DNA of 64,000 nucleotides from assembly GCF_024360925.2 (NCBI RefSeq), contig NZ_CP113517.1:2666001-2730000 (forward strand), in the 5' to 3' direction. The notes under the pieces were generated by a model. It worked only from the letters and a program-made list of their open reading frames with translations, was not told the DNA's origin and searched no databases. This document shows, one piece after another, positions 41,597-60,400 of this stretch. The stretch is from Methylomonas rapida. GTDB taxonomy: Bacteria > Pseudomonadota > Gammaproteobacteria > Methylococcales > Methylomonadaceae. Both the position numbers and the translations under genes were made by a program. How positions within the stretch are numbered: position 1 is the stretch's first letter; each line of letters opens with the position of its first letter.

Positions 41597-41773
41597 AAAG
41601 GTAAATCCATATCCAATACCATCCATCCCCATCTAGATTAATCAGTATTTATCTATATATATCAACATATTATATTATTTTGTTGTCCAAGGCCGTTTAT
41701 AGTGATTTAATCAAATCCAAGAAAAAATGTATCCCGGAATGTATCCCGGAAATTGATGTAGGCGGAATAAATC

Positions 41774-43075
41774 ATGGCTAACAACAAACTAACCGACTTG
41801 GCATTTCGCAAGCTCAAACCTCTGGAAAAAGAGCAACTCATTCCGGATGGTGGCGGTCTTTATGTCAGGGTTCGACCAGTCACTGAAGGGGGTGCCATTT
41901 CTTTTCGCTTCCGTTATCTGAATCAAGGTAAACAAATCTGGATGACCTTAAAGGCGAAATCATTGGCTGATGCGAGAAAGGAACGGGACAACTACAAATC
42001 CATGGCGAAACAAGGGATCGACCCTGTCACTGAGCAAAAATTATCCGCAGAACGAGCGAGAGCTACCCAGCTCGCCGAGGAAGCAGAGATTGCCAGACTA
42101 CAAGCATTGACTAGCGTTGATGGATTATTTGAACGCTGGGCCGCGACAGATCTTCAACAACGCAAAGATTTTGCTGAAGTTCAGCGTATGTTTACCAAAG
42201 ATGTATTGCCGGTAATTGGCTCGTTTAACGTGCAGGACATTCGCAAAGGCCACGTGACTGACGTCATTGATCGCATCAAACGACGCGGCTCGGTTCATAC
42301 CGCACGCAATCTGCTTAAATTGATGAGACAGATGTTCAAATTCGCAGTTGATCGAGACATCATTGAATTTGACCCGACGGCAAGTTTAAGTGTTAGCAAG
42401 ATTACGACCAAAAACACCGAGCGCGATCGCGTGTTGTCACAAGATGAAATCAAACTTCTAACCCAGCAATTGCCTGCAGCAGGCCTGATGCCGTCAACCG
42501 AATGCGCACTCTGGATCATGTTATCCACGCTTTGCCGAGTTGGCGAATTAAGTAAAGCGCAATGGAAGCATGTCGATTTCGATGCCCGGACCTTTTTCAT
42601 TCCCATTGAAAACAGTAAAAACGACAAGGCCCACACCATTTTTCTTTCTGACTTTGCTTATGCTCAGTTTCAACGATTGTTCACTTTCAAACAGTCGGAA
42701 ACCTGGTTGTTTCCCAATAGCAAAAACACATCCCATGTTTGCGAAAAGTCCATCACCAAACAAATCGATGGCCGCCAGAATTCAACGGTTTACAGCAATA
42801 GAAGCAAGGCTAATCAGGCCTTGGTCATGCCCGGCGGCAAATGGACACCGCACGACTTGCGCAGGACCGGCGCCACCATGATGGGCAATCTTGGCGTACA
42901 CGGCGACGTTATCGAGAAGTGCCTGAACCACACTCAGGAAAACACGCTGAAGCGCGTTTATCAACATCAAGCGTTGAAAACCGAGCAAGCAGAGGCATGG
43001 CGTGTGTTGGGTGAACGACTAGAACTATTGACCAGTGGTAACCCAAATGTCATTCCAATCAAACGGGTAATCTGA
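41774..43075 (+). CDS. Tyrosine-type site-specific integrase (P4-like)
   Basis: A 433-residue integrase with an N-terminal DUF4102-type arm-binding domain (FRKLKPLEKEQLIPDGGGLY), a core-binding domain (about residues 115-205), and the catalytic domain. The catalytic residues are Arg in STLCRVGELSKAQW, the HDLRRTGATM box, and Tyr in LKRVYQHQ. Proteins of this type insert islands into tRNA genes, which fits the tRNA-Pro fragment just upstream. The start ATG at 41774 is preceded by a GTAGGCGGA region. Confidence 0.93.
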   Translation: MANNKLTDLAFRKLKPLEKEQLIPDGGGLYVRVRPVTEGGAISFRFRYLNQGKQIWMTLKAKSLADARKERDNYKSMAKQGIDPVTEQKLSAERARATQLAEEAEIARLQALTSVDGLFERWAATDLQQRKDFAEVQRMFTKDVLPVIGSFNVQDIRKGHVTDVIDRIKRRGSVHTARNLLKLMRQMFKFAVDRDIIEFDPTASLSVSKITTKNTERDRVLSQDEIKLLTQQLPAAGLMPSTECALWIMLSTLCRVGELSKAQWKHVDFDARTFFIPIENSKNDKAHTIFLSDFAYAQFQRLFTFKQSETWLFPNSKNTSHVCEKSITKQIDGRQNSTVYSNRSKANQALVMPGGKWTPHDLRRTGATMMGNLGVHGDVIEKCLNHTQENTLKRVYQHQALKTEQAEAWRVLGERLELLTSGNPNVIPIKRVI

Positions 43076-43141
43076 AGCAATGCTGAATCAAGATGCACAA
43101 TTGGCGTACAATTGCATTCAAGCAATTGGAGGATCTTAGTT

Positions 43142-43914
<773 letters not shown>

Positions 43915-44173: not shown

Positions 44174-46329
44174 TTAGCGAGCATGATCGTCATCATCAAA
44201 TTGAATCACGTAAAACCAAGCCGAGCCGCCGTGGACTTTGACCTGGGTGACATGCTTTTTTGGATTGGGGCCGGATTTCAGGATCCCCTGACCGATCAGC
44301 AATTTGACCGCCAGGGCCAGATCGGCATGACCAATGGCCTTTTTGAAACCGGCTGTGCTGAACAACCATTGCCGGCCGCGTTCGGTTTGGCGCCAATAGC
44401 CGGAACGCTCGCCATGCAGGCGGTTGGGGTCGTCGGTTTTGGTAAAGCGGCTGTCGCCATAGAGTTCAAGGTACTGCCGCAACGCATTGGCTAATTGCCG
44501 GGGTTCTAGTTCGCAGGGTCCACGCTGTTGACGCCAATGTTTGAAGCAGATCAATGCCGCTTCCATGGCGATGCATTCCGGCCAGCCCGTGACGCCATAT
44601 TCGCTGGCCAACTCACCCACCATGCCGATCAAGGCAAAGCTGCCGGCTGCCCTGCCCTCCTCTGCTGATAAAGGGCCGTAGTGCTGTTCGAAAATACGCA
44701 GGCATTGCTCTAGATAGCCGGCAAAATCGCGTCGGTCGCGGGTCAATCGCTCCAGAAAAGCAATACCGGCGGTGCCATATTGCTGCGACGTGCGCTGATG
44801 CAGTGCCATGGCAAAGGCTCGTCTACTGCCATAGTCATGCAGATGGTCAAAGGCACCGTGTTGACCAAACACCGACAACTGCAGAAAGCGCACCAATTCA
44901 CCGGCGTTGACCGGTATACCGGCTTTACTCAGATGGGCTTCAATCGAGTCTTCACCGTTGGACAAAATCGCTACCCGCCAATGCTGATGCAGCATGGCTT
45001 TGCCATGGATCGTGGCCCGTTGTTTGCCCACGCCATTGGCCAGCAGATACAGCGACTTGCTGACATCCTGGGCATCGGCCTTACTCATTTCATCCAGACA
45101 CTGGCGGCGACTTGCATGCCGCTGGTCTTGCCCTGACTGGAGGGGCCATAAATATGAATGGCCAAGCTGTCCAGATGGCATTTAGCCAGCAAAGGGCCGC
45201 AAAAGGCGAGCGAGACCATTAACAGCAAAAAAGGATTGCCGGGACATAAACCCGCCACCTGTTGTTGCCAGGCGGACAAGGTACCGGCTTGCCGATACAA
45301 GTTACTGTTTGTATTCCCCTCGGACTGCAGCAAAACGGCATCCGTCGAATCGCCGATACTACGATCCGGCAGCACATAAACATTATCAAACCAACCGGGC
45401 GTCGATGTGATCCAGATCGTTCGATCAGGCTGTTGCTGACTCAAATACTCCGCCAACCGATTGCGTTGCGGGTAGTGAATATCCAGGCCTTGGTCGAACA
45501 AGGCTTTCTGTAGCTCATCGCCACGGCCAGCCAGAAATCGCAATGGCATGTGCCGCTGTTTGAGTACGCCCAGACGATCGCGAAAGTTCAGCAATAAGCC
45601 AAACTCGCCACCCTGCCGGTTGCGAACAATCGCCACGGCCTTCAACACACAACAGATTCTGACATCGCGTAGCGCCGGCGGCTCCTTGGCAGACGATTTG
45701 CCGAGAAAATGGTAATACACACCGGCGGGCCAGCTATGATCTGGACCACAAGTGTGTTCATACACGCGATAACAGGGGCGACTGTCGGCGCTGGGAAGTG
45801 AGGATGCCACATCCAAATCGAATTTGGCAGTACCGGTTGCCTGACTCGCTGTCCGGATCTCGGCCAAATCGGCGGACGACAACTGTGCGAGCAAAATTCG
45901 CTCTATGCTGGATACCAAAGCAAAACCGTCATCGACCGTTTCCTCCAGAATGAGTTCAGAATCAGTATTTACGTTAGTCACCCTACCCTCCTCCAGTCGA
46001 TACACCACAATCTCGTCACGTACCTGCGCCCATCGCTGGCCCACGAGCCGACCAGAATCGTAATCAAACGCGGGTTGACTGAAATCCACATCGCTTGGCC
46101 AGACGACAACCCGTTCTGCGCCATCACCAAGCAGCAGCTTGATCAGTGCCATCACGTCATCATGACCGGCGGCCTGATCAGGTTGCCAGTCGACGATTAA
46201 CATCAGGCCCAGCACAGGCCAACGATACTGGATCTGTGCCGAGTTAGAAGGACATATCAGTGCCCATAAGGTGGGATTGCCTTGCCACTGCCGGGCTCTA
46301 TGCCAAACGGCGGCAACGGCAATCGTTGA
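44174..46329 (-). pseudogene. DUF927-type ATPase gene, broken by an internal deletion and frameshift
   Basis: The 5' part (to 45085) encodes the N-terminal region and Walker A loop (IHIYGPSSQGKTSGMQVAAS), then stops at VWMK. The 3' part, in another frame, resumes at CLDEMSKADAQDVSKSLYLL and continues to 44174. In intact DUF927 proteins about 30 residues lie between these points, so a deletion has removed them and shifted the frame; a CTGG microhomology marks the joint near 45095. The true start is also unclear. The main frame is open from the AlpA stop but has no ATG before 46203, and an ATG at 46337 opens another frame that ends after 26 codons. DUF927 proteins are helicase/primase-like enzymes of mobile elements. 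Confidence 0.75.
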
Positions 46330-46572
46330 TCAGGCATCAGCGTTGCCGGTGCATTGAGCGCCTAAACGCGCAATGAGCTGGGCAATATCCTCGACCCGCC
46401 AGGCGGTCATATTGGGGCCCATTTTGATCGGCTTAGGAAAGATGCCTTTTTTGATGCCATCCCACCAAGATGATTTACTCATGGGCAGCAATCCATAAAT
46501 GGGCGGATTGGCCTTTGGATCACCAATAATTTGTTTCAAACGCAGAAAACCAGTTTCGGGCAATTTACTCAT
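46330..46572 (-). CDS. AlpA-family transcriptional regulator / excisionase-like
   Basis: An 80-residue protein of the AlpA type. It has a MerR-like winged-helix core (ETGFLRLKQIIGD, LLPMSKSSWWDGIKKGIFPK) ending in PNMTAWRVEDIAQLIARL. Such proteins activate integrase genes or help excision of P4-like islands. The ATG at 46572 follows GAGG. Its stop codon is in the same reading frame as the DUF927 gene that follows at once. Confidence 0.88.
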   Translation of the reverse strand: MSKLPETGFLRLKQIIGDPKANPPIYGLLPMSKSSWWDGIKKGIFPKPIKMGPNMTAWRVEDIAQLIARLGAQCTGNADA

Positions 46573-46712
46573 GTTTATTAACCTCATAATCATTGGAAAA
46601 ATGGGGCGATAGTCCTTATTTCAAGTCAGCCAGCCGACCAATTCTTTATTTTAAAAAGGTGATTGACAGGTGATTGGTCGACTCTGAACATAGAATGTTA
46701 TAAATACAGAAT

Positions 46713-47210
46713 CTAAGGATCGGTTTTCAAACTGGTCTTACAGACACAACACCGCTCTAATGATTTTTCACTGCCCACGATTATCAACACGGGCGAACTG
46801 CACTGATGGCATGAAATCAACCGCAACTGCTTATTCCTCAAGTCTCGCGCCACCAACCACGCTGTGGTGAAATCCAGGCTGCTATTGGGCAAGGAGATTT
46901 TGAAAAAGTCGAATGCCTGAATGACGTTATCGATGCCACCCTGAACATTTTCGGTTTCAATCGATTGAAATAGTTTGGCGAAGAGCGTGGCCTCCTTGTA
47001 CCGCCTCACGTTGTGTGTCAGTCCACGAATCGACTCCTTGATCGGACCGGGACTGCCAGAACGGCCAAGTAGCTCTTTGTAAGTCGCTTTTATCAAGTCT
47101 TTAGGAACAGTGGTTTCCCTAATAATGACTGCAATTCTGGCTTGGCGCTGAATCAATTGAACAGTCAATTCATACTGTTTTAGTCTTTTGATCATCCTTT
47201 TGGCCTCCAT
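46713..47210 (-). CDS. FlhC-like transcriptional activator (pair 2)
   Basis: A 165-residue protein resembling FlhC, the DNA-binding half of the FlhDC activator. The N-terminus has RQARIAVIIRETTVPKDLI, similar to the FlhC helical region. The middle has LDFTTAWLVARDLRN, matching the conserved xAWxLxR segment. The C-terminus has a four-Cys zinc site, CHQC at 134-137 and CVC with Cys154/Cys157. It overlaps the STAS-FlhD gene by one base (TAATG), so the two are surely co-translated. SetC and AcaC of conjugative elements are related; the target promoters are unknown. Confidence 0.78.
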   Translation of the reverse strand: MEAKRMIKRLKQYELTVQLIQRQARIAVIIRETTVPKDLIKATYKELLGRSGSPGPIKESIRGLTHNVRRYKEATLFAKLFQSIETENVQGGIDNVIQAFDFFKISLPNSSLDFTTAWLVARDLRNKQLRLISCHQCSSPVLIIVGSEKSLERCCVCKTSLKTDP

Positions 47211-47803
47211 TACTCGCCACCACCGCTTAATGTCAGCAAAACATCAATACCGTTACGCTGTTTGGTATTGATCTGCGTAAACAAATGATTCGGCATCCTG
47301 GGCGCAAAGCATAACCAGCCAGACTGGGCAATATGCTCAATATCTTCCAGCGACAAGCGTCCGATGGCTTGGCGCAAATCCTGATCAGTAATGCCCAAAA
47401 TGTATCTGGCGCAAAACGGCTTATCGCGGCAAAGCTCGCGGGCTTTGATTAGCCATAGACTGTTCAATGACACGATTTCCTGATCAGTGGTCTGAGCCTG
47501 AAAGCGAGCCAAGCCATCGAAATAGTCATCCAACTCGCTGAGGGCAGACTGCATGACGCCACTGACTTCGGCGGACAGGTTTTTTAGCTGCAGCCATTGA
47601 TTCAAAAAATCGGCGCCGAATTCGTTGGTCAAGGGGCACAATAGCGCCTGGCAAAATGCCTGTGACACTTGCCCAACATTCAAAAAGTCGAGGGTTAAGG
47701 GTTGATGATTGAAAAAGCATTCTCGCGCCAGATGGGCTAAATTTTTTCCTTCCGCCGCATCCAGTCTTGTTCGAGCATTGATAGATTGAACGAATAAGTA
47801 CAT
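47210..47803 (-). CDS. STAS-like (DUF4325) domain fused to an FlhD-like domain
   Basis: A 197-residue two-domain protein. Residues about 1-95 read like a STAS-like DUF4325 module: an initial strand, ARTRLDAAEGKNLAHLAREC, the central strand PLTLDFLNVGQVSQAFCQAL, then QWLQLKNLSAEV. Residues about 110-185 read like FlhD: LNSLWLIKARELCRDKPFCA, RYILGITDQDLRQAIGRLSL, EDIEHIAQSGWLCFAPRM. I know of no such fusion described. It lies between two FlhC-like genes with an AAGGAGAG ribosome site and would pair with the downstream FlhC. The STAS part may sense a ligand or partner; this is inference. Confidence 0.7.
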   Translation of the reverse strand: MYLFVQSINARTRLDAAEGKNLAHLARECFFNHQPLTLDFLNVGQVSQAFCQALLCPLTNEFGADFLNQWLQLKNLSAEVSGVMQSALSELDDYFDGLARFQAQTTDQEIVSLNSLWLIKARELCRDKPFCARYILGITDQDLRQAIGRLSLEDIEHIAQSGWLCFAPRMPNHLFTQINTKQRNGIDVLLTLSGGGE

Positions 47804-47821
47804 AAAGACTCTCCTTGGTCG

Positions 47822-48448
47822 TTAGTAGCGGCCGAGACATATCGCCGAATTTTTTCGCTCATGTTGTGAAAAAGTCCGCGAAACACGAGATTGTCGACTC
47901 ATAATCCCTGTTTGGGTTTGACACACTGGACAATGGATTGGCCCTTGAATACCCAGGTGAAGGCTCAGGTGCCGGGCATGACACGTCAGGCAAGTCACAA
48001 AACCCAAGGTGGAGGCACGGAATTGTTGGGTCAGTTGCCATGCCCGATTGATATCCAGCACTCTATGGAGTTTGAATTCTGCCTCTCGATGGCTGGGCTT
48101 TGGATTATGGGCGACGATACGGCAGTACAAATCGTATGCCGTGCAAAACCGCTGGCCAAACTCGATGCCATTACCATGCCCAGGCACATAATCCTGAATC
48201 AGCCCCAAGAAAATCGAAGCATGCAGATTGTTGACAGTCGCTCGCTCAATCCACTGCGGATCCCATGGCAGCATGCCTTTAATAGGCGCTTGTTTTTGCG
48301 CGAGCCAGTAAATGCGGTTCGCCGTTTTCCGTTTGATACCGCAGAGAGAGCAAACGATTGGCGTTCGGGCGCCCAGCTTGAACAACGTTTTAGCCAACAT
48401 TAGTTCGGCACCAAAATGCGACAAGTCGACGAAGCCACCGTTATTCAT
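47822..48448 (-). CDS. FlhC-like transcriptional activator (pair 1)
   Basis: A 208-residue FlhC-like protein. It has an N-terminal helical part (LMLAKTLFKLGARTPIVCSL), KGMLPWDPQWI, similar to the FlhC KGMLPFSxxWF segment, LDINRAWQLTQQFRAS, and a four-Cys zinc site with CLTC at 153-156 and CPVC at 173-176. A Ser/Arg-rich tail of about 30 residues follows. A second Cys pair (CSLC, 33-36) is an extra feature. The start overlaps the upstream FlhD-like gene by 8 bp. Confidence 0.8.
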   Translation of the reverse strand: MNNGGFVDLSHFGAELMLAKTLFKLGARTPIVCSLCGIKRKTANRIYWLAQKQAPIKGMLPWDPQWIERATVNNLHASIFLGLIQDYVPGHGNGIEFGQRFCTAYDLYCRIVAHNPKPSHREAEFKLHRVLDINRAWQLTQQFRASTLGFVTCLTCHARHLSLHLGIQGPIHCPVCQTQTGIMSRQSRVSRTFSQHERKNSAICLGRY

Positions 48449-48725
48449 GTTGGCCAGCCTGATTCAGTGAATCGTGGACGAGCAAGGCAGCATAAGCGGC
48501 GGCAGATATCGGGTGGTTGCCCAGTGGCAGCAAACTGATGACGGCGCGGTTGATCGCGGCCTGTTCTTTGATGATCTCCAGTGATAGGTCTGCCACTTGG
48601 CTGACCACCTCTGGATCAACACCAAACCGCCAAGCGGCTTCCATGGCGTTGCTGCGGGCACATTCTCTGAATAGCATCAAATACTGAAAATTCAGATGGG
48701 TCAGATCTTCTTCTAGCGTAGCCAT
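48441..48725 (-). CDS. FlhD-like co-activator (pair 1)
   Basis: A 94-residue all-helical protein resembling FlhD: LTHLNFQYLMLFRECARSNA, AWRFGVDPEVVSQVADLSLE and IIKEQAAINRAVISLLPLG align in order with the FlhD helices. FlhD itself does not bind DNA alone; it forms a ring with FlhC. The start at 48725 has AGGGAG six bases upstream; an ATG at 48752 would add nine residues. It is the first gene of the minus-strand regulator operon. Confidence 0.78.
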   Translation of the reverse strand: MATLEEDLTHLNFQYLMLFRECARSNAMEAAWRFGVDPEVVSQVADLSLEIIKEQAAINRAVISLLPLGNHPISAAAYAALLVHDSLNQAGQHE

Positions 48726-49035
48726 GCAATGCTCCCTGGTTGATAACGACATGGGCTCATGCTACGAGGTTAGTTTTGTAAGCGTCACGCGCGCAAAGTG
48801 GGTGTTTTTGGGGCATTTTCCGCGCAAAGCCTTGCGGGACTTGGCTTGGCGAGGCTACGCCTTATGATTGAGGAGCAAAAAGCAATTGACAATTCGTAAC
48901 CGTTTGTATTTTCGGTGAATTATTTTGCTGGATAGCTTTAGGTAGCGTAATTAGGTCAAAAGCGGGCCTTTTTTGCACGCTTGCAAGATTGAATTTTTCA
49001 GTAGACTCGGCTCAACCTTACGAGTCAACGCTGCC
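48726..49035. promoter_or_regulatory. Divergent control region between the two FlhDC-like operons
   Basis: The 310 bp between FlhD-like 1 and the transglycosylase hold no gene. TTGACA occurs at 48886-48891 and TATTTT at 48907-48912, a short (15-base) spacing pointing toward the transglycosylase operon. A GCGGGCCTTTTTTG stretch near 48962 could be a weak stop signal. This is the natural place for autoregulation by the FlhDC-like proteins. Confidence 0.35.
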
Positions 49036-49665
49036 ATGCACAATGTCGATTTGAAATCCGGTTTCCGATGGCGATGCGCCGCTAAACAGCATCGTCCCTG
49101 TCAGCGGCTCACTTTGCTGAGCCTTCTCTTCGTCTGTACCGCTTGTTTAGCCAATGACGGCAGCAAGCAGGTACATGTCGCTGTGCCCGTGCAGAAACTA
49201 CAAAACACCCTTTGGTGGCGGATTGCCAAACAGCACCAACTGGACCCCTACATACTGTATGCGGTGGCATTAAAAGAATCCGCCAACGATGCCGATCCCG
49301 CATCGGTTAAACCTTGGCCCTGGGCATTGAATAAATCGGGAAAAGCCTTGATGGCCACATCGCGGCGAGAGGCCCAGGCCTTGCTCAAACAATCGCTCGA
49401 CGAAGGCAATCGACTGATCGATGTGGGGTTGATGCAAATCAATCTGCGCTGGCATGGCCACAGAGTGAGCACACCGGCACAATTACTGGATCCGATGACC
49501 AATGTGCAAATCGGTGCCGAACTGTTAGCCGCAGCAATTCGATCGGCTCCACACGATTTGGCCTTAGGCATTGGCCGCTACTACAGTTGGAACAATGCGG
49601 AAGCCGCTGTCGCCTACGGACAAAGCGTCATGGCGATCGCCGACCACGTCAGGCAGGTGATTTGA
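49036..49665 (+). CDS. Lytic transglycosylase (SLT domain), conjugation-type
   Basis: A 209-residue protein with a signal sequence (LTLLSLLFVCTACLAND) and an SLT domain: LDPYILYAVALKESANDADP with the catalytic Glu, then IDVGLMQINLRWHG and ALGIGRYYSWN. Small transglycosylases of this kind open the peptidoglycan for conjugation or secretion machines. The gene ends one base before an FlhD-like gene, an order also found in SXT/R391 and IncC elements next to their FlhDC-like activators. The ATG at 49036 was chosen because it opens onto the signal peptide. Confidence 0.82.
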   Translation: MHNVDLKSGFRWRCAAKQHRPCQRLTLLSLLFVCTACLANDGSKQVHVAVPVQKLQNTLWWRIAKQHQLDPYILYAVALKESANDADPASVKPWPWALNKSGKALMATSRREAQALLKQSLDEGNRLIDVGLMQINLRWHGHRVSTPAQLLDPMTNVQIGAELLAAAIRSAPHDLALGIGRYYSWNNAEAAVAYGQSVMAIADHVRQVI

Positions 49666-49666
49666 T

Positions 49667-49981
49667 ATGGAGGAAAGTCTCTATCAACTGCAATTGGATT
49701 ATTTGATGTTGGCACGGGAAATGGTATTGGCCGGCCAGGAACAAAAAGCCCTGTTTAGTTTGGGCTTGACGCCAGAAGCCGTGGCCATCCTGAAAAAATT
49801 ACCCGTTCAGAAGATCCGAGAAATCGCTCGGCGCGAATGCGTGGCTTTTACCCCGCGTTTCAATGCCAGCTATTGGAGTCGCTATCTGCTCAGCGAACCA
49901 CCGGCGGATGACAAACTGGCTTGTGAATACCAGGCGCGTGACTTGCTCATGTTAATCAGTGGCTCCGGTAATACCGCATGA
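49667..49981 (+). CDS. FlhD-like co-activator (pair 3)
   Basis: A 104-residue FlhD-like protein: LYQLQLDYLMLAREMVLAGQ, ALFSLGLTPEAVAILKKLPV and QKIREIARRECVAFTPRFNA match the FlhD helices in order, and the last part also resembles the end of the STAS-fused FlhD domain (CFAPRM). The C-terminus overlaps the next FlhC-like gene by 4 bp (ATGA). Confidence 0.78.
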   Translation: MEESLYQLQLDYLMLAREMVLAGQEQKALFSLGLTPEAVAILKKLPVQKIREIARRECVAFTPRFNASYWSRYLLSEPPADDKLACEYQARDLLMLISGSGNTA

Positions 49982-50544
49982 GCACTTGGTATACCTACGA
50001 AGACCGGCTCAGGGATCATTATCTTGCCTATCAATTGCTGAAACGCAATCTGAGAACGTCGTTCGTCAAGGAGCAGATCAAAACCATTAGCCAGCACGAA
50101 CTCAAGAATATCCACTATGCTATCCATCTGCATCGACCACCGTCCGGGCAATTACCGATCGTCTCAACCATTCCTTCATCCCGCGAATCGTTTCTATACC
50201 TGACTGTATTCCTGTCAATTTACCAGGCCGCCAGTCAAGTCAACACCCAATCGCAATTTGATGTGCCGGCCATCCTATTTGCCTGGGACTATTTCCAGAA
50301 AACCTTCAAAGAGCATATCGCTGTCGAAAGACCCTATGGCAAAATCCGGCCGGCCAATTTCAATGAAGCCTGGATATTGGCGCAAGGCCTGCGTAAGTGT
50401 GAGGTTGCCTTGAAATATTGCCCCCGTTGTCGGCATAACTATCTGATTATCTATCAGAGCAAATTTCTGCCCGTTTGCCAGTTATGCGACTTAGAAGAAG
50501 CAAAAAACCATGGCTTCACTAACACGCTAACTACTTCGAAGTAA
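49978..50544 (+). CDS. FlhC-like transcriptional activator (pair 3)
   Basis: A 188-residue FlhC-like protein with a helical N-terminus, FDVPAILFAWDYFQKTF, the conserved RPANFNEAWILAQGLR, and a four-Cys zinc site with CPRC at 148-151 and CQLC at 167-170. The Cys spacing equals that of the other two copies to within a residue. It ends about 200 bp before the convergent secretion operon. It is too different from the other two FlhC-like proteins to be a recent duplicate. Confidence 0.8.
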   Translation: MSTWYTYEDRLRDHYLAYQLLKRNLRTSFVKEQIKTISQHELKNIHYAIHLHRPPSGQLPIVSTIPSSRESFLYLTVFLSIYQAASQVNTQSQFDVPAILFAWDYFQKTFKEHIAVERPYGKIRPANFNEAWILAQGLRKCEVALKYCPRCRHNYLIIYQSKFLPVCQLCDLEEAKNHGFTNTLTTSK

Positions 50545-50750: not shown

Positions 50751-52184
50751 TCACCGTTCCCGTAAACTCTCCCCTACATGTTCGATCAAGGGGCTGAGGA
50801 AGTATTCAATAACCCGGCGTTTACCAGTCTTGATTTCCACTGTTACAGCCATGCCCGGCGTCAGATTGACGGTCTTGTTTTCGATTTGCATCGTCGTGCG
50901 GGGCAGAGTTACCCTAGACGAATAAATCAAGCCTTTCGTTTCGTCGCTAATCGCATCGCGCGAGACGTGAGCGACTTCGCCGTGCAAAGTTCCGTATTTG
51001 GTGTAGGGAAAGGTTTCAATCTTGATTTCGGCTTCTTGGCCGGGATCGACAAAACCGATGTCCTTATTTTCGATAAAGGCTTCGATCTCCAGAGCTTGCC
51101 CAGCCGGTACGACGATCAACAATGGCTGAGCAGGCGTCACGACGCCGCCAACAGTGTGTACCGCCAATTGCTGAACGACGCCGTCGACCGGGGCAGTCAG
51201 CGTCAGCAATTGGCCACGCTGCCGCGCTTTGATGCTAGCCTGGGTATAGGTTTCTATTTTTTGCTCGCTGTCGTGCAAACGGTCCAGCGCATTACGTTGA
51301 GCGCCGGCCAACAGTTCGTTCCGTTGCTTGACTGCTTCCAAGATCGCCGCTTGCAGCTCTTGTTGTTTCTCCCTTTGTGCTGCCAGTTCGCCTTCCTGTT
51401 CGATCCTCGCCTGTTCCCGGTCCAGATAATCGTGATTGGAGACGTAGTGGCTGCCGTGCAACTTCTGGTAGTCTTCGGCCAGTTGCCGTACGATGGGCAC
51501 CGCTTTTTCCAATTTGCTCACGGTGGCAGCGACCGAGCGCAAGGCCGCCTGCCGACTGTTTTTTTCGGCCTCCAGTCGGTCCAATTTGCTGGTCAGTTCT
51601 TGCCATTCGCCGTCCAGCAAGCGTTGTTCGTGTTCGAACTGCCAAGACGGTATCTCGATAGTCACGGCCAGCCGCGGCTGTCGGACTTTGCCTTCCTGTA
51701 GGGCTTTTAGACTGTCGAGAAAGGCCGAATCGCGCGCCGCGGTCAATTGCGCGGTACGCAGGTCGTTGGCGATGCTGGCTGTATCGGCATCCGCTACGGT
51801 CGTATCGAGTTCGATCAAGACATCGCCGGCTTTGACAGTTTGGCCGTCGCTAACGTGGATCGCTTTGACCGTCGCAGTTTCCAACGGTTGTATGGTCTTG
51901 ACTCTGCCGCCGGGCACCAGTTTGCCTTGGGCGCTGGCAACAATGTCGACACGGCCAAAGCAAGCCCACAGCACCGCAATCAAGGCAAACGCGATCAATA
52001 GCCACATGGCGACACGCGGGGCCGGCGAAACCGGCGTTTCCTGTAAGGCCAAGGCCGCCGGCAAGAAAGCGGCTTCGTGGTTCAGTCTGGGCGAGCTGTC
52101 CAGTTCGGTCCGCCTAGCCCATACGTGGCGAAACACGTGGACATAGCGTTGAATCAAATCGAAAGTAGCTTGTAGTTTCAGCAT
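50751..52184 (-). CDS. Type I secretion periplasmic adaptor (HlyD family)
   Basis: A 477-residue membrane-fusion protein. After a cytoplasmic N-terminus of about 57 residues, one membrane segment (VAMWLLIAFALIAVLWACF) leads to a biotinyl-lipoyl-like half (LVPGGRVKTIQPLETATVKA), a long coiled coil (about residues 195-330, rich in Glu, Gln and Arg), and a second lipoyl half with beta-barrel (LTLTAPVDGVVQQLAVHTVG, GMAVTVEIKTGKRRVIEYF). The terminal RRVIEYFLSPL is the HlyD signature. It links the ABC transporter to a TolC-type channel. It lies 31 bp after the transporter gene. Confidence 0.93.
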   Translation of the reverse strand: MLKLQATFDLIQRYVHVFRHVWARRTELDSSPRLNHEAAFLPAALALQETPVSPAPRVAMWLLIAFALIAVLWACFGRVDIVASAQGKLVPGGRVKTIQPLETATVKAIHVSDGQTVKAGDVLIELDTTVADADTASIANDLRTAQLTAARDSAFLDSLKALQEGKVRQPRLAVTIEIPSWQFEHEQRLLDGEWQELTSKLDRLEAEKNSRQAALRSVAATVSKLEKAVPIVRQLAEDYQKLHGSHYVSNHDYLDREQARIEQEGELAAQREKQQELQAAILEAVKQRNELLAGAQRNALDRLHDSEQKIETYTQASIKARQRGQLLTLTAPVDGVVQQLAVHTVGGVVTPAQPLLIVVPAGQALEIEAFIENKDIGFVDPGQEAEIKIETFPYTKYGTLHGEVAHVSRDAISDETKGLIYSSRVTLPRTTMQIENKTVNLTPGMAVTVEIKTGKRRVIEYFLSPLIEHVGESLRER

Positions 52185-52215
52185 GGGACGTGTTTGAATC
52201 GAGATAAAAACCGCT

Positions 52216-54357
52216 TCATTCCTGTTGCAAACGGTACAAATAAGCATAATGGCCGTCTTGCCGCTGGAGCAGTTCGGCGTGGCTGCCCTGCTCAACGATC
52301 CGGCCTTTATCCACCACGATAATGCGATTGGCGTCGCGCACGGCACTGAGTCTATGGGCGATGACGATAACAGTCCGTCCTCGGCAGATGGCTTTCATGT
52401 TGTGTTGAATGACGCGTTCGGATTCGTAGTCTAAAGCACTGGTGGCTTCGTCGAAAATCAGGATGCGTGGGTTGGCCAATAAGGCTCTGGCGATAGCGAT
52501 GCGTTGGCGCTGCCCGCCGGACAGGGTCGATCCGTGTTCGCCGACCATGGTGTCGTAGGCTTCCGGTAGTTCCAGGATAAAGTCGTGGGCACCGGCCAGT
52601 TTGGCGGCGGCGATGACTTGCGGCAGCGGCGCACCGGGGTCAGTCAAGGCGATGTTGTCGCGTATGCTGCGGTTGAACAAGACATTTTCCTGCAATACTA
52701 CGCCGATTTGGCGCCGGAGCGACGAGACGTCGGCCAAAGCCAAGTCCATGCCGTCGACCAATACCCGCCCTCGCTCGGGCACGTAGAGGCGTTGCACCAG
52801 CTTGGTCAAGGTGCTTTTGCCGGAACCGGAACGGCCGACGATGCCGATCACTTCGCCGGGTCGAATGTCTAGATTAATCCCACGCAATACTTCCGAACCG
52901 TCCGGCTGATAGCGAAACACGACTTGGTCGAAGGTTATTCGGCCTTGTAGCGGCGGCAAGCTGCTCTTGTTGGTAGCCATTTCGTTACGGGCGTTCAAGA
53001 TATCACCCAAACGCTGCATCGAAATACCGGTCTGCTGAAAGTCGGTCCATAGTTGCGACAGCCGCATGACCGGTTGGGCCACGTGGCCGGCCAGCATATT
53101 GAAAGCGATCAGTTGGCCGACGGTGATTTCGCTCTCTATGACCAGATGTGCACCCAGCCACATCGTTGCCACGGTGACCAGCTTGCCGATCAAAGTGACG
53201 CCGCCGTTGGCAAAAATACCAATGGTGGCGGTACGGAAGCCGGCGGAGATATAGGCCGCCAATTGTTGATCCCAATGTCGGGTCAATTGCGGTTCTACCG
53301 CCATGGCCTTGACAGTGTTAATGCCGGCAATGGCTTCCACAAGAAAAGCCTGATTTTCGGCGCCGCGGTTGAATTTTTCGTGCAGGCGGCCGCGCAGCAA
53401 AGGCGTGTACAGCAGAGACAACAATACATAACAAGGTAGGGACATCAATACGATCAGAGTCAAGTCCCAACTGTAGTAAGTCATTACCGCCAAAAACACC
53501 ACCGAAAACAACAAATCCAGCACAACGGTAACGGCGTTGCCGGTTAAAAAGGCCCGGATATTTTCCAGTTCCCGCACTCTGGCGACCGAATCGCCGACCC
53601 GCCGCGCTTCGAAATAAGCCATCGGCAAGTTCAGCAAATGCCTAAACAGCCTCGCACCGAGTTCGACATCGATGCGGCTGGTGGTATGCGCGAATACGTA
53701 ACTGCGCAAGCCGGTCAACACCACTTCGAACAAGGTCACCACCAATAGGCCGACCGCGATGACATTCAGCGTGGTAAAGCCTCTATGTACTAAGACCTTA
53801 TCCATCACCACTTGGAAGAACAGTGGCGTAACCAAGGCGAACAACTGCAACACGAAGCTGACCAGCAGCACTTCCAATAATAGTTTGCGGTATTTGACCA
53901 CTGCCGGAATAAACCAGGTAAAGTCGAATTTACCGAGTTCTGCGGTCAGAGAGGCGCGGGAGGCGAAAAGCATCAACTCGCCGTTCCAGCGTTGTGCAAA
54001 ATCGGTCAAGCTCAAACGCTCCGGCCGCCCGATGGTAGGTGATTGAATCAGCACCTGATCGGCTTCGACCTTAGCCAAGATGAAATACTCGCCGCTAACA
54101 GATTTGGCCAGCGCTGGCAGCGGCGTAGTGTTTAAACGTTCCAGTTTGACCCTGACAGCTTTGACCTTAAGGCCCAGTTGTTTACCAGCCAGCAAAATCT
54201 CGCCGTCACCAAAAGGACGACTGCCATCGCGGTATTGGTGTGCCAGCTGATCTGGATCGGCCGCAACCCCGTATAGCCTGGCCATCATTACCAAACCGAT
54301 CAATCCGGTATCGGTAGACGCTGACGAATCGGTGTCCGAAGCAGGGGAAATAGTCAT
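52216..54357 (-). CDS. Type I secretion ABC transporter (HlyB family)
   Basis: A 713-residue permease-ATPase. The N-terminal ~130 residues form a C39-like domain in which the catalytic Cys position is occupied by Thr (STDTGLIGLVMMARLYG), so it binds rather than cleaves its substrate. About six membrane segments follow (FTWFIPAVVKYRKLLLEVLL onward). The ATPase has Walker A GRSGSGKST, signature LSGGQRQRIAIARAL and Walker B ILIFDEATSAL. It exports the RTX protein encoded just upstream. The ATG at 54357 gives the normal HlyB length; the open frame upstream lies in a hairpin. Confidence 0.95.
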   Translation of the reverse strand: MTISPASDTDSSASTDTGLIGLVMMARLYGVAADPDQLAHQYRDGSRPFGDGEILLAGKQLGLKVKAVRVKLERLNTTPLPALAKSVSGEYFILAKVEADQVLIQSPTIGRPERLSLTDFAQRWNGELMLFASRASLTAELGKFDFTWFIPAVVKYRKLLLEVLLVSFVLQLFALVTPLFFQVVMDKVLVHRGFTTLNVIAVGLLVVTLFEVVLTGLRSYVFAHTTSRIDVELGARLFRHLLNLPMAYFEARRVGDSVARVRELENIRAFLTGNAVTVVLDLLFSVVFLAVMTYYSWDLTLIVLMSLPCYVLLSLLYTPLLRGRLHEKFNRGAENQAFLVEAIAGINTVKAMAVEPQLTRHWDQQLAAYISAGFRTATIGIFANGGVTLIGKLVTVATMWLGAHLVIESEITVGQLIAFNMLAGHVAQPVMRLSQLWTDFQQTGISMQRLGDILNARNEMATNKSSLPPLQGRITFDQVVFRYQPDGSEVLRGINLDIRPGEVIGIVGRSGSGKSTLTKLVQRLYVPERGRVLVDGMDLALADVSSLRRQIGVVLQENVLFNRSIRDNIALTDPGAPLPQVIAAAKLAGAHDFILELPEAYDTMVGEHGSTLSGGQRQRIAIARALLANPRILIFDEATSALDYESERVIQHNMKAICRGRTVIVIAHRLSAVRDANRIIVVDKGRIVEQGSHAELLQRQDGHYAYLYRLQQE

Positions 54358-54402
54358 GGAAATAATTGTTAATGAAAGTGTGTTTGAAAAGCGAAAGGCA
54401 GG

Positions 54403-54438
54403 GGAAACTAACCGGAGCAACAGGCCCGGTTAGTTTCC
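54403..54438 (-). terminator. Intercistronic hairpin between RTX gene and transporter gene
   Basis: A perfect 13-bp inverted repeat (GGAAACTAACCGG / CCGGTTAGTTTCC) with a 10-base loop lies 22 bp beyond the RTX stop. On the transcribed strand a pyrimidine-rich stretch follows. It could end part of the transcripts so that far more RTX message than transporter message is made, or stabilise the RTX mRNA. Confidence 0.6.
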
Positions 54439-54460
54439 GAATTTGGTTGCCGGCTTTAGA

Positions 54461-57400
54461 CTACTGCCAGTTTGCCGCCAAGACCGGTGCCAAGGCATCT
54501 TGATAATCCTGTGGCAGCGTGGTCTGGCCTGCTGCAGGTGGAGCGAAATCCGCCATCGCGTTAACCAAGTTTTCGACCTGACTATCCAACAAAGTTAAAC
54601 CATCTGTAGTTGTGAACTGTTCGATATGATAGGCCGATCCGGTATACCAATTGCTTATCGTCGTTTTATCATCAGTTCCAATAATACTGAGCTCCAGGTC
54701 AGAGCCGACGTGACGAAACCAAAGTTGCTCTGCAGCGATGCCGCTTTCGAACGAAATTTTATCGACATTACCAGCAGTTGCATCATATTCGTACACGATA
54801 TCCTGCCCATCTCCCAAACCGAGCAGGTAAACGTCGGAGCCAGCACCGCCAACCAGATAGTCGTTTCCACCGCCCCCGTTCAGAATGTCATTGCCTGTTT
54901 CACCGTTGAGTGTGTCATTACCCGCCTGACCATTCAAGACATCATTACCGACACCGCCATTTAGGTAATCATCACCTAAATCCGCAGTAATGTTATCGTC
55001 ACCCAGGCCGCCATAAAGATAATTTGTTTCAGCACCTCCCGTAATCACATCATTCGCATCGGTCCCTCCCATATTCACGCCTTTGGTGTTTAGCAAGGCG
55101 GTCGCGCTCAGTACCGTGCCGTCGGCAAACTGGAAGTTTTCGACTTGATAGCCCCAGTTGCCGTAGCTGTTGTTATAAACATACCAGTTCTTGAAGGTCA
55201 GCCGGTCGCCTTGACCCAGATCCATCACTAGGTCGGAACCCACTTGGGTAAAGACCATGTCCGCCGCCGCTATGCCAGCCCCGAACACGATCTTGTCGCC
55301 GTTGCCGCCCAAGTAAGACGTATCGTATCCGTCGCCACTTTCGATGACGGTATCCTCGCCGTCGCCTCGGTTGATGTAGTAGACGTCGGCGTTTCTGCCG
55401 CCTTGCAGTACGTCGTTGCCCAAGCCGCCGGTCAGGTTGTCGTTGCCGTCGCCGCCGATCAGGCTGTCGTTGCCGCCGTTCGCCAGTAGGGTGTCGTTGC
55501 CGCTGCCGCCGTTCAGGCTGTCGATACCGTCGCCGCTTTCCAGTCGATCGTTACCCGCATCGCCATTCAGCGTATTGTTACCACTGCCGCCCAGTAACAC
55601 GTCATTACCGTTGCCGCCACTGATCGTATCATCGCCCAAGCCGCCGTCCAGTTGGTCGTTGCCGTCTTGACCGTTCAATACGTCGTTGCCGTCGTCGCCG
55701 CTGACGATGTCGTCACCCGCACCGGCATTGATGGTATCGTTACCCAGGCCGCCAATGATCCGATCAATCTCAGCGCCGCTCAGTATACTGTCGTTGCCGT
55801 CCGTGCCGACCGTATCGACGCCTTTGGTGTTTAGCAAGGCGGTCGCGCTCAGTACCGTGCCGTCGGCAAACTGGAAGTTTTCGACTTGATAGCCCCAGTT
55901 GCCGTAGCTGTTGTTATAAACATACCAGTTCTTGAAGGTCAGCCGGTCGCCTTGACCCAGATCCATCACTAGGTCGGAACCCACTTGGGTAAAGACCATG
56001 TCCGCCGCTTCGATGCCGGCCCCGAACACGATCTTGTCGCCGTTGCCGCCCAAGTAAGACGTATCGTATCCGTCGCCACTTTCGATGACGGTATCCTCGC
56101 CGTCGCCTCGGTTGATGTAGTAGACGTCGGCGTTTCTGCCGCCTTGCAGTACGTCGTTGCCCAAGCCGCCGGTCAGGTTGTCGTTGCCGTCGCCGCCGAT
56201 CAGGCTGTCGTTGCCGCCGTTCGCCAGTAGGGTGTCGTTGCCGCTGCCGCCGTTCAGGCTGTCGATACCGTCGCCGCTTTCCAGTCGATCGTTACCCGCA
56301 TCGCCATTCAGCGTATTGTTACCACTGCCGCCCAGTAACACGTCATTACCGTTGCCGCCACTGATCGTATCATCGCCCAAGCCGCCGTCCAGTTGGTCGT
56401 TGCCGTCTTGACCGTTCAATACGTCGTTGCCGTCGTCGCCGCTGACGATGTCGTCACCCGCACCGGCATTGATGGTATCGTTACCCAGGCCGCCAATGAT
56501 CCGATCAATCTCAGCGCCGCTCAGTATACTGTCGTTGCCGTCCGTGCCGACCGTATCGACGCCTTTGGTGTTTAGCAAGGCGGTCGCGCTCAGTACCGTG
56601 CCGTCGGCAAACTGGAAGTTTTCGACTTGATAGCCCCAGTTGCCGTAGCTGTTGTTATAAACATACCAGTTCTTGAAGGTCAGCCGGTCGCCTTGACCCA
56701 GATCCATCACTAGGTCGGAACCCACTTGGGTAAAGACCATGTCCGCCGCTTCGATGCCGGCCCCGAACACGATCTTGTCGCCGTTGCCGCCCAAGTAAGA
56801 CGTATCGTATCCGTCGCCACTTTCGATGACGGTATCCTCGCCGTCGCCTCGGTTGATGTAGTAGACGTCGGCGTTTCTGCCGCCTTGCAGTACGTCGTTG
56901 CCCAAGCCGCCGGTCAGGTTGTCGTTGCCGTCGCCGCCGATCAGGCTGTCGTTGCCGCCGTTCGCCAGTAGGGTGTCGTTGCCGCTGCCGCCGTTCAGGC
57001 TGTCGATACCGTCGCCGCTTTCCAGTCGATCGTTACCCGCATCGCCATTCAGCGTATTGTTACCACTGCCGCCCAGTAACACGTCATTACCGTTGCCGCC
57101 ACTGATCGTATCATCGCCCAAGCCGCCGTCCAGTTGGTCGTTGCCGTCTTGACCGTTCAATACGTCGTTGCCGTCGTCGCCGCTGACGATGTCGTCACCC
57201 GCACCGGCATTGATGGTATCGTTACCCAGGCCGCCAATGATCCGATCAATCTCAGCGCCGCTCAGTATACTGTCGTTGCCGTCCGTGCCGACCGTATCGA
57301 CGCCTTTGGTGTTTAGCAAGGCGGTCGCGCTCAGTACCGTGCCGTCGGCAAACTGGAAGTTTTCGACTTGATAGCCCCAGTTGCCGTAGCTGTTGTTATA

Positions 57401-60400
57401 AACATACCAGTTCTTGAAGGTCAGCCGGTCGCCTTGACCCAGATCCATCACTAGGTCGGAACCCACTTGGGTAAAGACCATGTCCGCCGCTTCGATGCCG
57501 GCCCCGAACACGATCTTGTCGCCGTTGCCGCCCAAGTAAGACGTATCGTATCCGTCGCCACTTTCGATGACGGTATCCTCGCCGTCGCCTCGGTTGATGT
57601 AGTAGACGTCGGCGTTTCTGCCGCCTTGCAGTACGTCGTTGCCCAAGCCGCCGGTCAGGTTGTCGTTGCCGTCGCCGCCGATCAGGCTGTCGTTGCCGCC
57701 GTTCGCCAGTAGGGTGTCGTTGCCGCTGCCGCCGTTCAGGCTGTCGATACCGTCGCCGCTTTCCAGTCGATCGTTACCCGCATCGCCATTCAGCGTATTG
57801 TTACCACTGCCGCCCAGTAACACGTCATTACCGTTGCCGCCACTGATCGTATCATCGCCCAAGCCGCCGTCCAGTTGGTCGTTGCCGTCTTGACCGTTCA
57901 ATACGTCGTTGCCGTCGTCGCCGCTGACGATGTCGTCACCCGCACCGGCATTGATGGTATCGTTACCCAGGCCGCCAATGATCCGATCAATCTCAGCGCC
58001 GCTCAGTATACTGTCGTTGCCGTCCGTGCCGACCGTATCGACGCCTTTGGTGTTTAGCAAGGCGGTCGCGCTCAGTACCGTGCCGTCGGCAAACTGGAAG
58101 TTTTCGACTTGATAGCCCCAGTTGCCGTAGCTGTTGTTATAAACATACCAGTTCTTGAAGGTCAGCCGGTCGCCTTGACCCAGATCCATCACTAGGTCGG
58201 AACCCACTTGGGTAAAGACCATGTCCGCCGCTTCGATGCCGGCCCCGAACACGATCTTGTCGCCGTTGCCGCCCAAGTAAGACGTATCGTATCCGTCGCC
58301 ACTTTCGATGACGGTATCCTCGCCGTCGCCTCGGTTGATGTAGTAGACGTCGGCGTTTCTGCCGCCTTGCAGTACGTCGTTGCCCAAGCCGCCGGTCAGG
58401 TTGTCGTTGCCGTCGCCGCCGATCAGGCTGTCGTTGCCGCCGTTCGCCAGTAGGGTGTCGTTGCCGCTGCCGCCGTTCAGGCTGTCGATACCGTCGCCGC
58501 TTTCCAGTCGATCGTTACCCGCATCGCCATTCAGCGTATTGTTACCACTGCCGCCCAGTAACACGTCATTACCGTTGCCGCCACTGATCGTATCATCGCC
58601 CAAGCCGCCGTCCAGTTGGTCGTTGCCGTCTTGACCGTTCAACACGTCGTTGCCGTCGTCGCCGCTGACGATGTCGTCACCCGCACCGGCATTGATGGTA
58701 TCGTCACCCAGGCCACCATAAAGATAATTTGTTTCAGCACCTCCCGTAATCACATCATTCGCATCGGTCCCTCCCATATTCACGCCTTTGGTGTTTAGCA
58801 AGGCGGTCGCGCTCAGTACCGTGCCGTCGGCAAACTGGAAGTTTTCGACTTGATAGCCCCAGTTGCCGTAGCTGTTGTTATAAACATACCAGTTCTTGAA
58901 GGTCAGCCGGTCGCCTTGACCCAGATCCATCACTAGGTCGGAACCCACTTGGGTAAAGACCATGTCCGCCGCCGCTATGCCAGCCCCGAACACGATCTTG
59001 TCGCCGTTGCCGCCCAAGTAAGACGTATCGTATCCGTCGCCACTTTCGATGACGGTATCCTCGCCGTCGCCTCGGTTGATGTAGTAGACGTCGGCGTTTC
59101 TGCCGCCTTGCAGTACGTCGTTGCCCAAGCCGCCGGTCAGGTTGTCGTTGCCGTCGCCGCCGATCAGGCTGTCGTTGCCGCCGTTCGCCAGTAGGGTGTC
59201 GTTGCCGCTGCCGCCGTTCAGGCTGTCGATACCGTCGCCGCTTTCCAGTCGATCGTTACCCGCATCGCCATTCAGCGTATTGTTACCACTGCCGCCCAGT
59301 AACACGTCATTACCGTTGCCGCCACTGATCGTATCATCGCCCAAGCCGCCGTCCAGTTGGTCGTTGCCGTCTTGACCGTTCAATACGTCGTTGCCGTCGT
59401 CGCCGCTGACGATGTCGTCACCCGCACCGGCATTGATGGTATCGTTACCCAGGCCGCCAATGATCCGATCAATCTCAGCGCCGCTCAGTATACTGTCGTT
59501 GCCGTCCGTGCCGACCGTATCGACGCCTTTGGTGTTTAGCAAGGCGGTCGCGCTCAGTACCGTGCCGTCGGCAAACTGGAAGTTTTCGACTTGATAGCCC
59601 CAGTTGCCGTAGCTGTTGTTATAAACATACCAGTTCTTGAAGGTCAGCCGGTCGCCTTGACCCAGATCCATCACTAGGTCGGAACCCACTTGGGTAAAGA
59701 CCATGTCCGCCGCTTCGATGCCGGCCCCGAACACGATCTTGTCGCCGTTGCCGCCCAAGTAAGACGTATCGTATCCGTCGCCACTTTCGATGACGGTATC
59801 CTCGCCGTCGCCTCGGTTGATGTAGTAGACGTCGGCGTTTCTGCCGCCTTGCAGTACGTCGTTGCCCAAGCCGCCGGTCAGGTTGTCGTTGCCGTCGCCG
59901 CCGATCAGGCTGTCGTTGCCGCCGTTCGCCAGTAGGGTGTCGTTGCCGCTGCCGCCGTTCAGGCTGTCGATACCGTCGCCGCTTTCCAGTCGATCGTTAC
60001 CCGCATCGCCATTCAGCGTATTGTTACCACTGCCGCCCAGTAACACGTCATTACCGTTGCCGCCACTGATCGTATCATCGCCCAAGCCGCCGTCCAGTTG
60101 GTCGTTGCCGTCTTGACCGTTCAATACGTCGTTGCCGTCGTCGCCGCTGACGATGTCGTCACCCGCACCGGCATTGATGGTATCGTTACCCAGGCCGCCA
60201 ATGATCCGATCAATCTCAGCGCCGCTCAGTATACTGTCGTTGCCGTCCGTGCCGACCGTATCGACGCCTTTGGTGTTTAGCAAGGCGGTCGCGCTCAGTA
60301 CCGTGCCGTCGGCAAACTGGAAGTTTTCGACTTGATAGCCCCAGTTGCCGTAGCTGTTGTTATAAACATACCAGTTCTTGAAGGTCAGCCGGTCGCCTTG

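Follow-up and report, generated by a model that had tools for sequence, protein, structure and literature searches.

Three FlhDC-type regulator pairs and class-specific palindromes in an integrative conjugative element of Methylomonas

Introduction

Regulators of the FlhDC family are known to control conjugation. Two of them, AcaCD and SetCD, recognize unrelated DNA motifs, and genomic islands have been described that read AcaCD or SetCD sites (PMC4207636, PMC4344509, PMC4605294). Here we describe a locus from Methylomonas rapida in which three regulator pairs of this family lie side by side. The locus occupies positions 46713-50544 of a 64,000-nucleotide stretch of DNA (contig NZ_CP113517.1, positions 2,666,001 to 2,730,000; G000:C1:2666001-2730000 in our genome numbering; hereafter the window) from a Methylomonas genome of 4.59 Mb, and it sits at one end of an integrative conjugative element (ICE) 140 kb in length.

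The closest described system is AcaDC of the IncA and IncC plasmids. In pRA1, genes in the order slt-D-C are located near F-type transfer genes, and the slt-Dx-Cx genes of the window match this slt-acaDC cassette. The AcaDC site is positioned just upstream of the promoter and is used as a signal by genomic islands (PMC4207636, PMC4605294). Specifically, AcaCD protects ~40 bp of SGI1 at a distance of 31 bp upstream from the start (PMC4605294), which resembles the layout reported below. This likeness concerns layout only. Unlike the AcaDC system, the Methylomonas element carries two further D/C pairs and a STAS-FlhD fusion, and its close relatives use several classes of putative operators.

SetCD of the SXT/R391 elements is likewise an FlhDC-family activator encoded by an integrated element, and the SetCD motif is found immediately upstream of the -35 element (PMC4344509). 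The Methylomonas element also shares with SXT/R391 ICEs a set of genes that we take to be of the ssb-bet-exo-cobS-radC type. SetCD is induced via SetR, and we know of no second and third FlhDC-type pair in SXT/R391.

A third point of comparison is SGI1, which has its own flhDC-like pair (S006-S007, or SgaDC), such that more than one FlhDC-type pair serves one mobile system, and whose excision gene is under the control of the helper's activator (PMC4605294, PMC9035990). In that system the pairs reside on two different elements, whereas here three are carried by one. Finally, in CapS and VapS, which kinases switch following DNA damage, a STAS domain forms part of a transcription factor or antitoxin (PMC13373217). 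Among solved structures, VapS best matches the N-terminal part of one of our regulators, in which the STAS domain is fused to FlhD and not to a winged helix.

We propose, with a probability of about 0.72, that the six genes constitute the control block of the ICE, in which Dx-Cx would be the activator of transfer and the remaining four genes a second, STAS-controlled layer.

Results

Pfam searches of the window and its open reading frames reveal two divergent operons that together encode three FlhD-like and three FlhC-like proteins, just as an earlier reading of the letters alone (the sequence-only reading) had claimed. The minus strand carries, in this order, Da (48441-48752; Pfam FlhD, 3.5e-6), Ca (47822-48448; FlhC, 1e-16), [STAS]Db (hereafter sDb; 47210-47803) and Cb (46713-47210; FlhC, 9e-15), which we refer to as the quartet. 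Its genes are tightly spaced, with an 8-bp overlap, then an 18-bp gap and then one shared base. The plus strand carries slt, encoding a lytic transglycosylase (49033-49665; SLT, 5e-9; start codon uncertain within 48973-49036), followed by Dx (49667-49981; FlhD, 1.4e-8), which by synteny takes the place of acaD in pRA1, and Cx (49978-50544; FlhC, 1.4e-5). Da, Ca, Cb and Dx pass the Pfam FlhC/FlhD cut-off of 27 bits; Cx (25.4 bits) and sDb (19.5 bits) fall below it. The three pairs are not equivalent, because Dx-Cx belongs to a cassette of the acaDC kind, whereas the remaining four genes make up a separate unit with a fusion protein. The sequence-only reading took sDb for a small FlhD-like protein and overlooked its N-terminal STAS domain (DUF4325, 2e-5), which precedes the C-terminal FlhD match (0.0012).

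Profile and structure comparisons address the two proteins below the cut-off. A profile of the sDb family (36 sequences), searched against PDB, matches solved FlhD structures over its C-terminal part (2e-7) and the STAS protein VapS over its N-terminal part (7e-4). The AlphaFold2 model of sDb (predicted local distance difference test, pLDDT, 75.6) has FlhD and STAS proteins as its top Foldseek matches, none of which reaches an E-value of 0.001. The model of Cx is of low confidence (pLDDT 56.6), and its top three matches are FlhC chains (E 5e-5 to 9e-5) from both solved FlhDC complexes. The FlhC fold of Cx is supported by this low-confidence model, and the FlhD part of sDb by the profile match and by Foldseek matches that stop short of that E-value. 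The two CxxC pairs that it had noticed in the FlhC-like proteins are general: they occur in 115 of 118 sequences (50/50 Ca, 52/55 Cb and 13/13 Cx, the three misses all being Cb; duplicates are included and fragments below 75% coverage dropped).

The host genome gives nine FlhC matches (six above the cut-off) and eight FlhD matches at E-values up to 1, together with three DUF4325 matches above the cut-off, every one of them in a STAS-FlhD fusion. Among 114 genomes drawn from the class, eight have an FlhC match, and the seven besides the host carry one apiece. A phylogeny of 63 FlhC-type proteins resolves Ca, Cb and Cx as three separate groups, each with support. The Ca group is placed with flagellar FlhC (99/95 support), a placement that is unsure because the outside branches are long.

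The ICE is delimited by a 26-bp attachment repeat, with its left copy at window positions 41723-41748 and its other copy at G000:C1:2848028-2848053, close to tRNA-Pro(ggg), whose end is ~57 bp away. The 23-bp core of this repeat, at up to 1 mismatch, is found exactly twice in the host genome and once in one other of 10 genomes searched. Between the ends lie int, traG-H-F, a relaxase gene, traD, traE to traN, ssb-bet-exo-cobS and radC, with names assigned by homology between ICEs and from annotated plasmid records and in part presumed. The claim that no tra genes lie nearby holds within the window and fails beyond it, as traG-H-F begins 4.3 kb outside it, at G000:C1:2734267. With its integrase, F-type transfer genes, relaxase and ssb/bet/exo block, the element is a 140-kb ICE of the SXT/R391-IncA/C kind. 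An orphan, remnant or satellite island was considered and ruled out once type A palindromes had been located beyond the window and the ICE had proved to be complete.

The same genome has a partial second ICE copy (3039840-3092718) that is 88-96% identical to the ICE of the window where the two align and comprises traE-traN and ssb-cobS blocks at 95-96% identity. Two type A sites lie in this interval, in which no FlhC match was found. The slt-D-C cassette also occurs near transfer genes on plasmids pRA1, Rts1, pTs417 and pUP202, as well as on pQBR55 and pGSUB1, where no transfer gene falls within the stretch shown.

Two layouts of the control genes are found among related ICEs. In type A, that of the window, the quartet is divergent to slt-Dx-Cx. 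In type B, the quartet and slt-Dx-Cx occupy opposite ends of the integrated element, ~80-250 kb apart, so that circularization of a type B ICE would bring the two blocks together across the attachment site.

The quartet is a conserved unit separate from Dx-Cx. The fusion profile finds 130 relatives, and those with an organism name among the 120 listed belong to Methylomonas, Methylobacter and unplaced Methylococcaceae or Methylococcales. Of 61 genomes searched, 18 have a full-length fusion match, and these all belong to one genus (of which 37 genomes were searched). A scan of named genomes yields 31 loci, nearly all from methanotrophs (Methylomonas, Methylobacter, Methylomicrobium, Methylovulum, Crenothrix and unplaced Methylococcaceae), two of them from one unplaced gammaproteobacterial metagenome-assembled genome. 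By manual reading, the gene order is intact in 22 of these 31, five are cut at contig or scaffold ends and four are damaged. Of the 20 loci retrieved initially from relatives, a set whose genomes partly overlap those of the named loci, 18 likewise keep the order intact; of the other two, one has a broken Cb and one only a recognized Db-Cb. The quartet is also present on a Methylobacter plasmid. The cluster is thus shared by other genomes, and the combination of absence elsewhere and decay is excluded.

The shared promoter motifs that the sequence-only reading had proposed seeking take the form of near-perfect palindromes of 30-38 bp close to annotated start codons, found by counting dyads in upstream regions and then by direct search. 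They precede traF, traI, traE and ssb in four ICEs of two classes, and likewise in classes A' and D. The palindrome of traI is centred 53-54 nt, and that of traE 283-284 nt, before the annotated start. The sequence is GCGAAAnCTCGATAATTATCGAGnTTTCGC in type A, GCAGCTGACGnCGAATTCGnCGTCAGCTGC in type B and CGAAATCGC...GCGATTTCG in class A'. Class D, represented by two ICEs, has GCAGCnAATG...CATTnGCTGC, which is related to type B in that both start with GCAGC. A further class C (G032) has weaker palindromes and is assigned from two sites alone. There are at least four, and perhaps five, palindrome classes.

Three type A ICEs have four sites each and no others above a threshold set at the best of five shuffles minus 3 bits (the controls being five shuffles of one ICE each). 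In a type B ICE (ICE1), the four best sites are those at traF, traI, traE and ssb; six weaker hits (17.9-23.7) also exceed the best shuffle (17.4), the type B weight matrix being diluted by weak sites, and two of these overlap the ssb and traF sites or are adjacent to them, and four are inside genes. Other enriched dyads of ICE1, such as GGGT-n7-ACCC, were discarded because they are within transposon repeats or genes. Class A' has four sites in the G026 region of the A' block, and allowing up to 2 mismatches reveals none elsewhere in G026. Of the two class D ICEs, that of G005 carries an additional, fifth site where traE is duplicated, as well as a second, weaker one near traF, and that of G035 has no B site.

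At up to 3 mismatches, 53 type B sites are present in 10 of 15 whole genomes searched. Manual sorting assigns 45 to positions in or near type B ICEs, one to a position 33 kb from a quartet, four to islands and three elsewhere. The reversed pattern gives one hit, and ~0.15 per genome are expected with uniform bases. The strict type B pattern recovers two to four sites per ICE, four not always being reached. For type A, 11 of 21 forward hits are in type A elements (five in G000, three in G009 and three in G026); the other 10 have a different centre and are more numerous than uniform bases would predict (0.011 per genome).

The position of each palindrome relative to its predicted promoter is also constant. 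Across 16 aligned sites of four classes, the best -10-like hexamer begins 24 nt after the 30-bp core, a result equalled by none of 2000 shuffles, which overstates its significance since the sites include orthologues and are not independent. This spacing corresponds to the predicted layout of an activator site next to a promoter, and putative shared sites upstream of several transfer-operon promoters are what one sees for activators of the AcaDC/SetDC type.

To relate regulators to palindromes, protein identities within and between classes were compared for 23 ICEs that have both ends and a class, giving 253 pairs (231 for Cb, one ICE being dropped for a broken Cb). ICEs of G006, G008, G018, G025, G028, G034 and others were excluded for want of one end, and in type B the quartet was paired with Dx-Cx by position. 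Dx and Cx separate the classes completely (area under the curve, AUC, 1.000), with Cx at least 76% identical within a class and at most 69% between classes. The quartet proteins give AUC values of 0.89-0.93. Among controls in 21 ICEs, TraG reaches 0.716 (210 pairs) and TraH 0.696 (190 pairs).

Between types A and B, TraG is 88-92% and TraH 95-99% identical, values that type B ICEs also show among themselves. For Dx, Cx and every quartet protein, by contrast, identity between the two types is 33-54%. Because TraG and TraH are alike and the regulators and palindromes are divergent, operators and control block appear to have been swapped jointly, with most of the transfer machinery common to both types.

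Palindromes of two classes also occur together outside the ICEs. In G018 (twice), G011 and G036, tandem A' and B palindromes 158-255 bp apart precede a DUF927 gene (G018:C1:2318118-2337560, G011:C1:5143773-5156000 and G036:C1:2160580-2170901). A -10-like sequence is on the DUF927 side of each palindrome in all four places. AlpA is recognized in two of the four, and an integrase gene accompanies the G018 pair. On the other side, three places have the same pair of large genes, which score as DISARM DrmD and DrmMI in G018, the one genome in which they were scored; at the second G018 place a type I restriction gene takes their position. No ICE transfer protein was found at the islands among the matches listed. 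Unlike SGI1, these islands have putative operators of two helper classes and no FlhC recognized within 11 kb. We regard them as candidate satellites that would read two ICE families.

Discussion

In the proposed mechanism, Dx and Cx would assemble into an FlhD4C2-like complex. Bound to the palindrome immediately upstream of the promoter, it would turn on the four transfer and recombination operons, as AcaCD and SetCD do. Synteny, the layout of the sites and covariation give good support to Dx-Cx as the predicted activator of transfer. The products of the quartet may act together as a second FlhDC-like complex, whose activity a partner protein or kinase could set through the STAS domain. This complex would govern an earlier step, namely expression of slt-Dx-Cx, excision or both, rather than the transfer operators. 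We infer such a role because two D and two C genes stay together in intact copies, one of them has a STAS domain and the quartet is located at an attachment end. ICEs of different classes in one cell would then not cross-activate, and some defence islands with operators of two classes could respond to either class.

Several observations weigh against this proposal, and the placement of the quartet above Dx-Cx is its more tentative part. The link between class and Dx-Cx is a correlation over linked genes, because slt (AUC 0.987 in the 23-ICE set and 0.994 in the 21-ICE controls) and TraF (0.986, 171 pairs) track class nearly as well. Between types A and B, TraF is 80-84% identical (86-100% among type B ICEs), and the relaxase of type A is about 49-52% identical to that of ICE1. 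Five genomes (G000, G011, G026, G031 and G036) carry two class B ICEs each, which would be expected to cross-activate, and insulation could therefore hold only between classes. One Methylobacter plasmid has a quartet and no third FlhC that we detected.

In the ICEs scanned, none of the four palindromes precedes slt, the quartet, int or AlpA, and for this reason no auto-regulation or hierarchy is visible by palindrome site. Conserved inverted repeats of other kinds do occur before Da in types A and A' (in the window an imperfect repeat with 8/9 pairs, 48789-48825) and before slt in types B and D; words common to the quartet and slt promoters are short (9-10 bases).

The STAS domain also departs from CapS and VapS at the phosphorylation place. 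At the column aligned with VapS S48 (Q48 in the window; residue 66 of the VapS chain, taken as S48 by counting the tag length), serine or threonine is found in 5 of 36 sDb sequences, and at the neighbouring column 47 in 31 of 36. The phosphorylatable serine of CapS and VapS is thus not conserved at the aligned place in this family. No dedicated kinase stood out in six genomes searched, where one weak HATPase_c_2 match falls inside an ICE interval among G000, G002, G009 and G026 (G026:632588). A phospho-switch of the CapK/VapK type was dropped on these grounds, and partner binding is the likelier mode because the serine is not conserved.

A bolder version of the proposal gives each part a definite role. 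The quartet would be one asymmetric ring, (Da)2(Db)2CaCb, whose two STAS sensors decide when the ICE leaves the chromosome. Dx-Cx would read a class-specific operator code, one of ~five, each replaced at all four promoters together and insulating the ICE classes from one another, with some defence islands being parasites that read two codes. We consider this version, taken as a whole, to be doubtful.

The alternatives fare worse. The quartet itself might bind the transfer palindromes, or the three pairs might make interchangeable mixed rings with different specificities. Consistent with this, the quartet proteins diverge between types A and B to the same 33-54% as Dx and Cx and have therefore changed with the operators at that depth. 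However, sDb and Cb of class D are up to 92-93% identical to those of type B, yet the palindrome differs (a comparison that involves two D ICEs only and palindromes that are related), and type B ICEs whose Ca proteins are merely 55% identical have the same palindrome. We find such an arrangement improbable.

Somewhat more improbable is that the palindromes are unrelated repressor operators or RNA hairpins that differ among ICE classes by chance. Near-perfect palindromes of this length by annotated start codons would indeed fold as RNA. But the -10-like box is downstream at a fixed distance, which places the palindrome probably outside the transcript (start sites being predicted), palindrome class tracks Dx-Cx and not TraG or TraH, and islands have the same palindromes before AlpA/DUF927. 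Least probable of all, a spare or decaying copy of a flagellar or ICE regulator with no present role, captured perhaps from the host given the grouping of Ca with flagellar FlhC and the damage at 4 of 31 loci, is at odds with the preserved four-gene order described above and with a zinc motif kept in nearly all FlhC-like sequences.

The proposal that the six genes are the ICE control block agrees with the earlier suggestion of SetCD/AcaCD-type regulators, several per element. Cross-element regulation, which the sequence-only reading had also raised, is likely because islands carry operators of two ICE classes, and its overall interpretation is supported in part. In the one literature collection searched, neither DUF4325 with FlhD nor SetCD with Methylomonas was found, and a search for Methylomonas FlhC in conjugation returned only a passing mention of FlhC for Methylococcus. 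As far as this literature extends, three D/C pairs per element, the STAS-FlhD fusion, the coherent exchange of predicted operators and candidate two-class islands are new. To our knowledge, the two-operator islands would be the first islands wired to two helper classes.

If the proposal is true, these elements contain an FlhDC-family regulator with a built-in signalling domain. The matched series of activators and operators on largely common conjugation machinery would make an FlhC-type DNA-recognition code directly testable, as it would regulatory insulation among mobile elements, whether kept or broken.

Other features of the locus

The left end of the ICE begins with a tyrosine recombinase gene, the ICE integrase (41774-43075, plus strand; Phage_integrase, 1.4e-22), followed by a toxin-antitoxin-like pair (43112-43914, plus strand). 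The first gene of this pair presumably encodes a small antidote-like protein, and the second encodes a GNAT acetyltransferase (Acetyltransf_1, 7e-10). On the minus strand, a DUF927 gene (44174-46215) is split across two overlapping frames, the pieces of which were searched separately; in the islands of other genomes DUF927 is a single frame of 607-739 aa.

An AlpA-like, excisionase-type regulator gene (46330-46593, minus strand; Phage_AlpA, 5.4e-5) comes after the quartet in the window and in some other copies. Between Cb and AlpA (46593-46713) is an inverted repeat, GTCGACCAAT...ATTGGTCG, with a near-perfect form, AGTCGACCAATC...GATTGGTCGACT, in the ICE of G009; it is possibly an AlpA site.

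Downstream of Cx and before traG, the minus strand carries type I secretion genes, tentatively named from their sequences, and a gene for a 2936-aa protein (54461-63271) with 54 RTX repeat matches. Together these span 50751-63271 and, because they lie between the ICE ends, are probably cargo.

Most type B loci have, divergent from the quartet, a gene for a ~331-356-aa protein without a Pfam match (L021:11672-12667 and relatives), and several have a gene for a 531-551-aa Hsp90-like ATPase (HATPase_c_3) a few kb away (L022:588-2183). The acaD place of pRA1 (L119:44679-45287) encodes a 202-aa protein that by eye resembles two FlhD-like halves in tandem.

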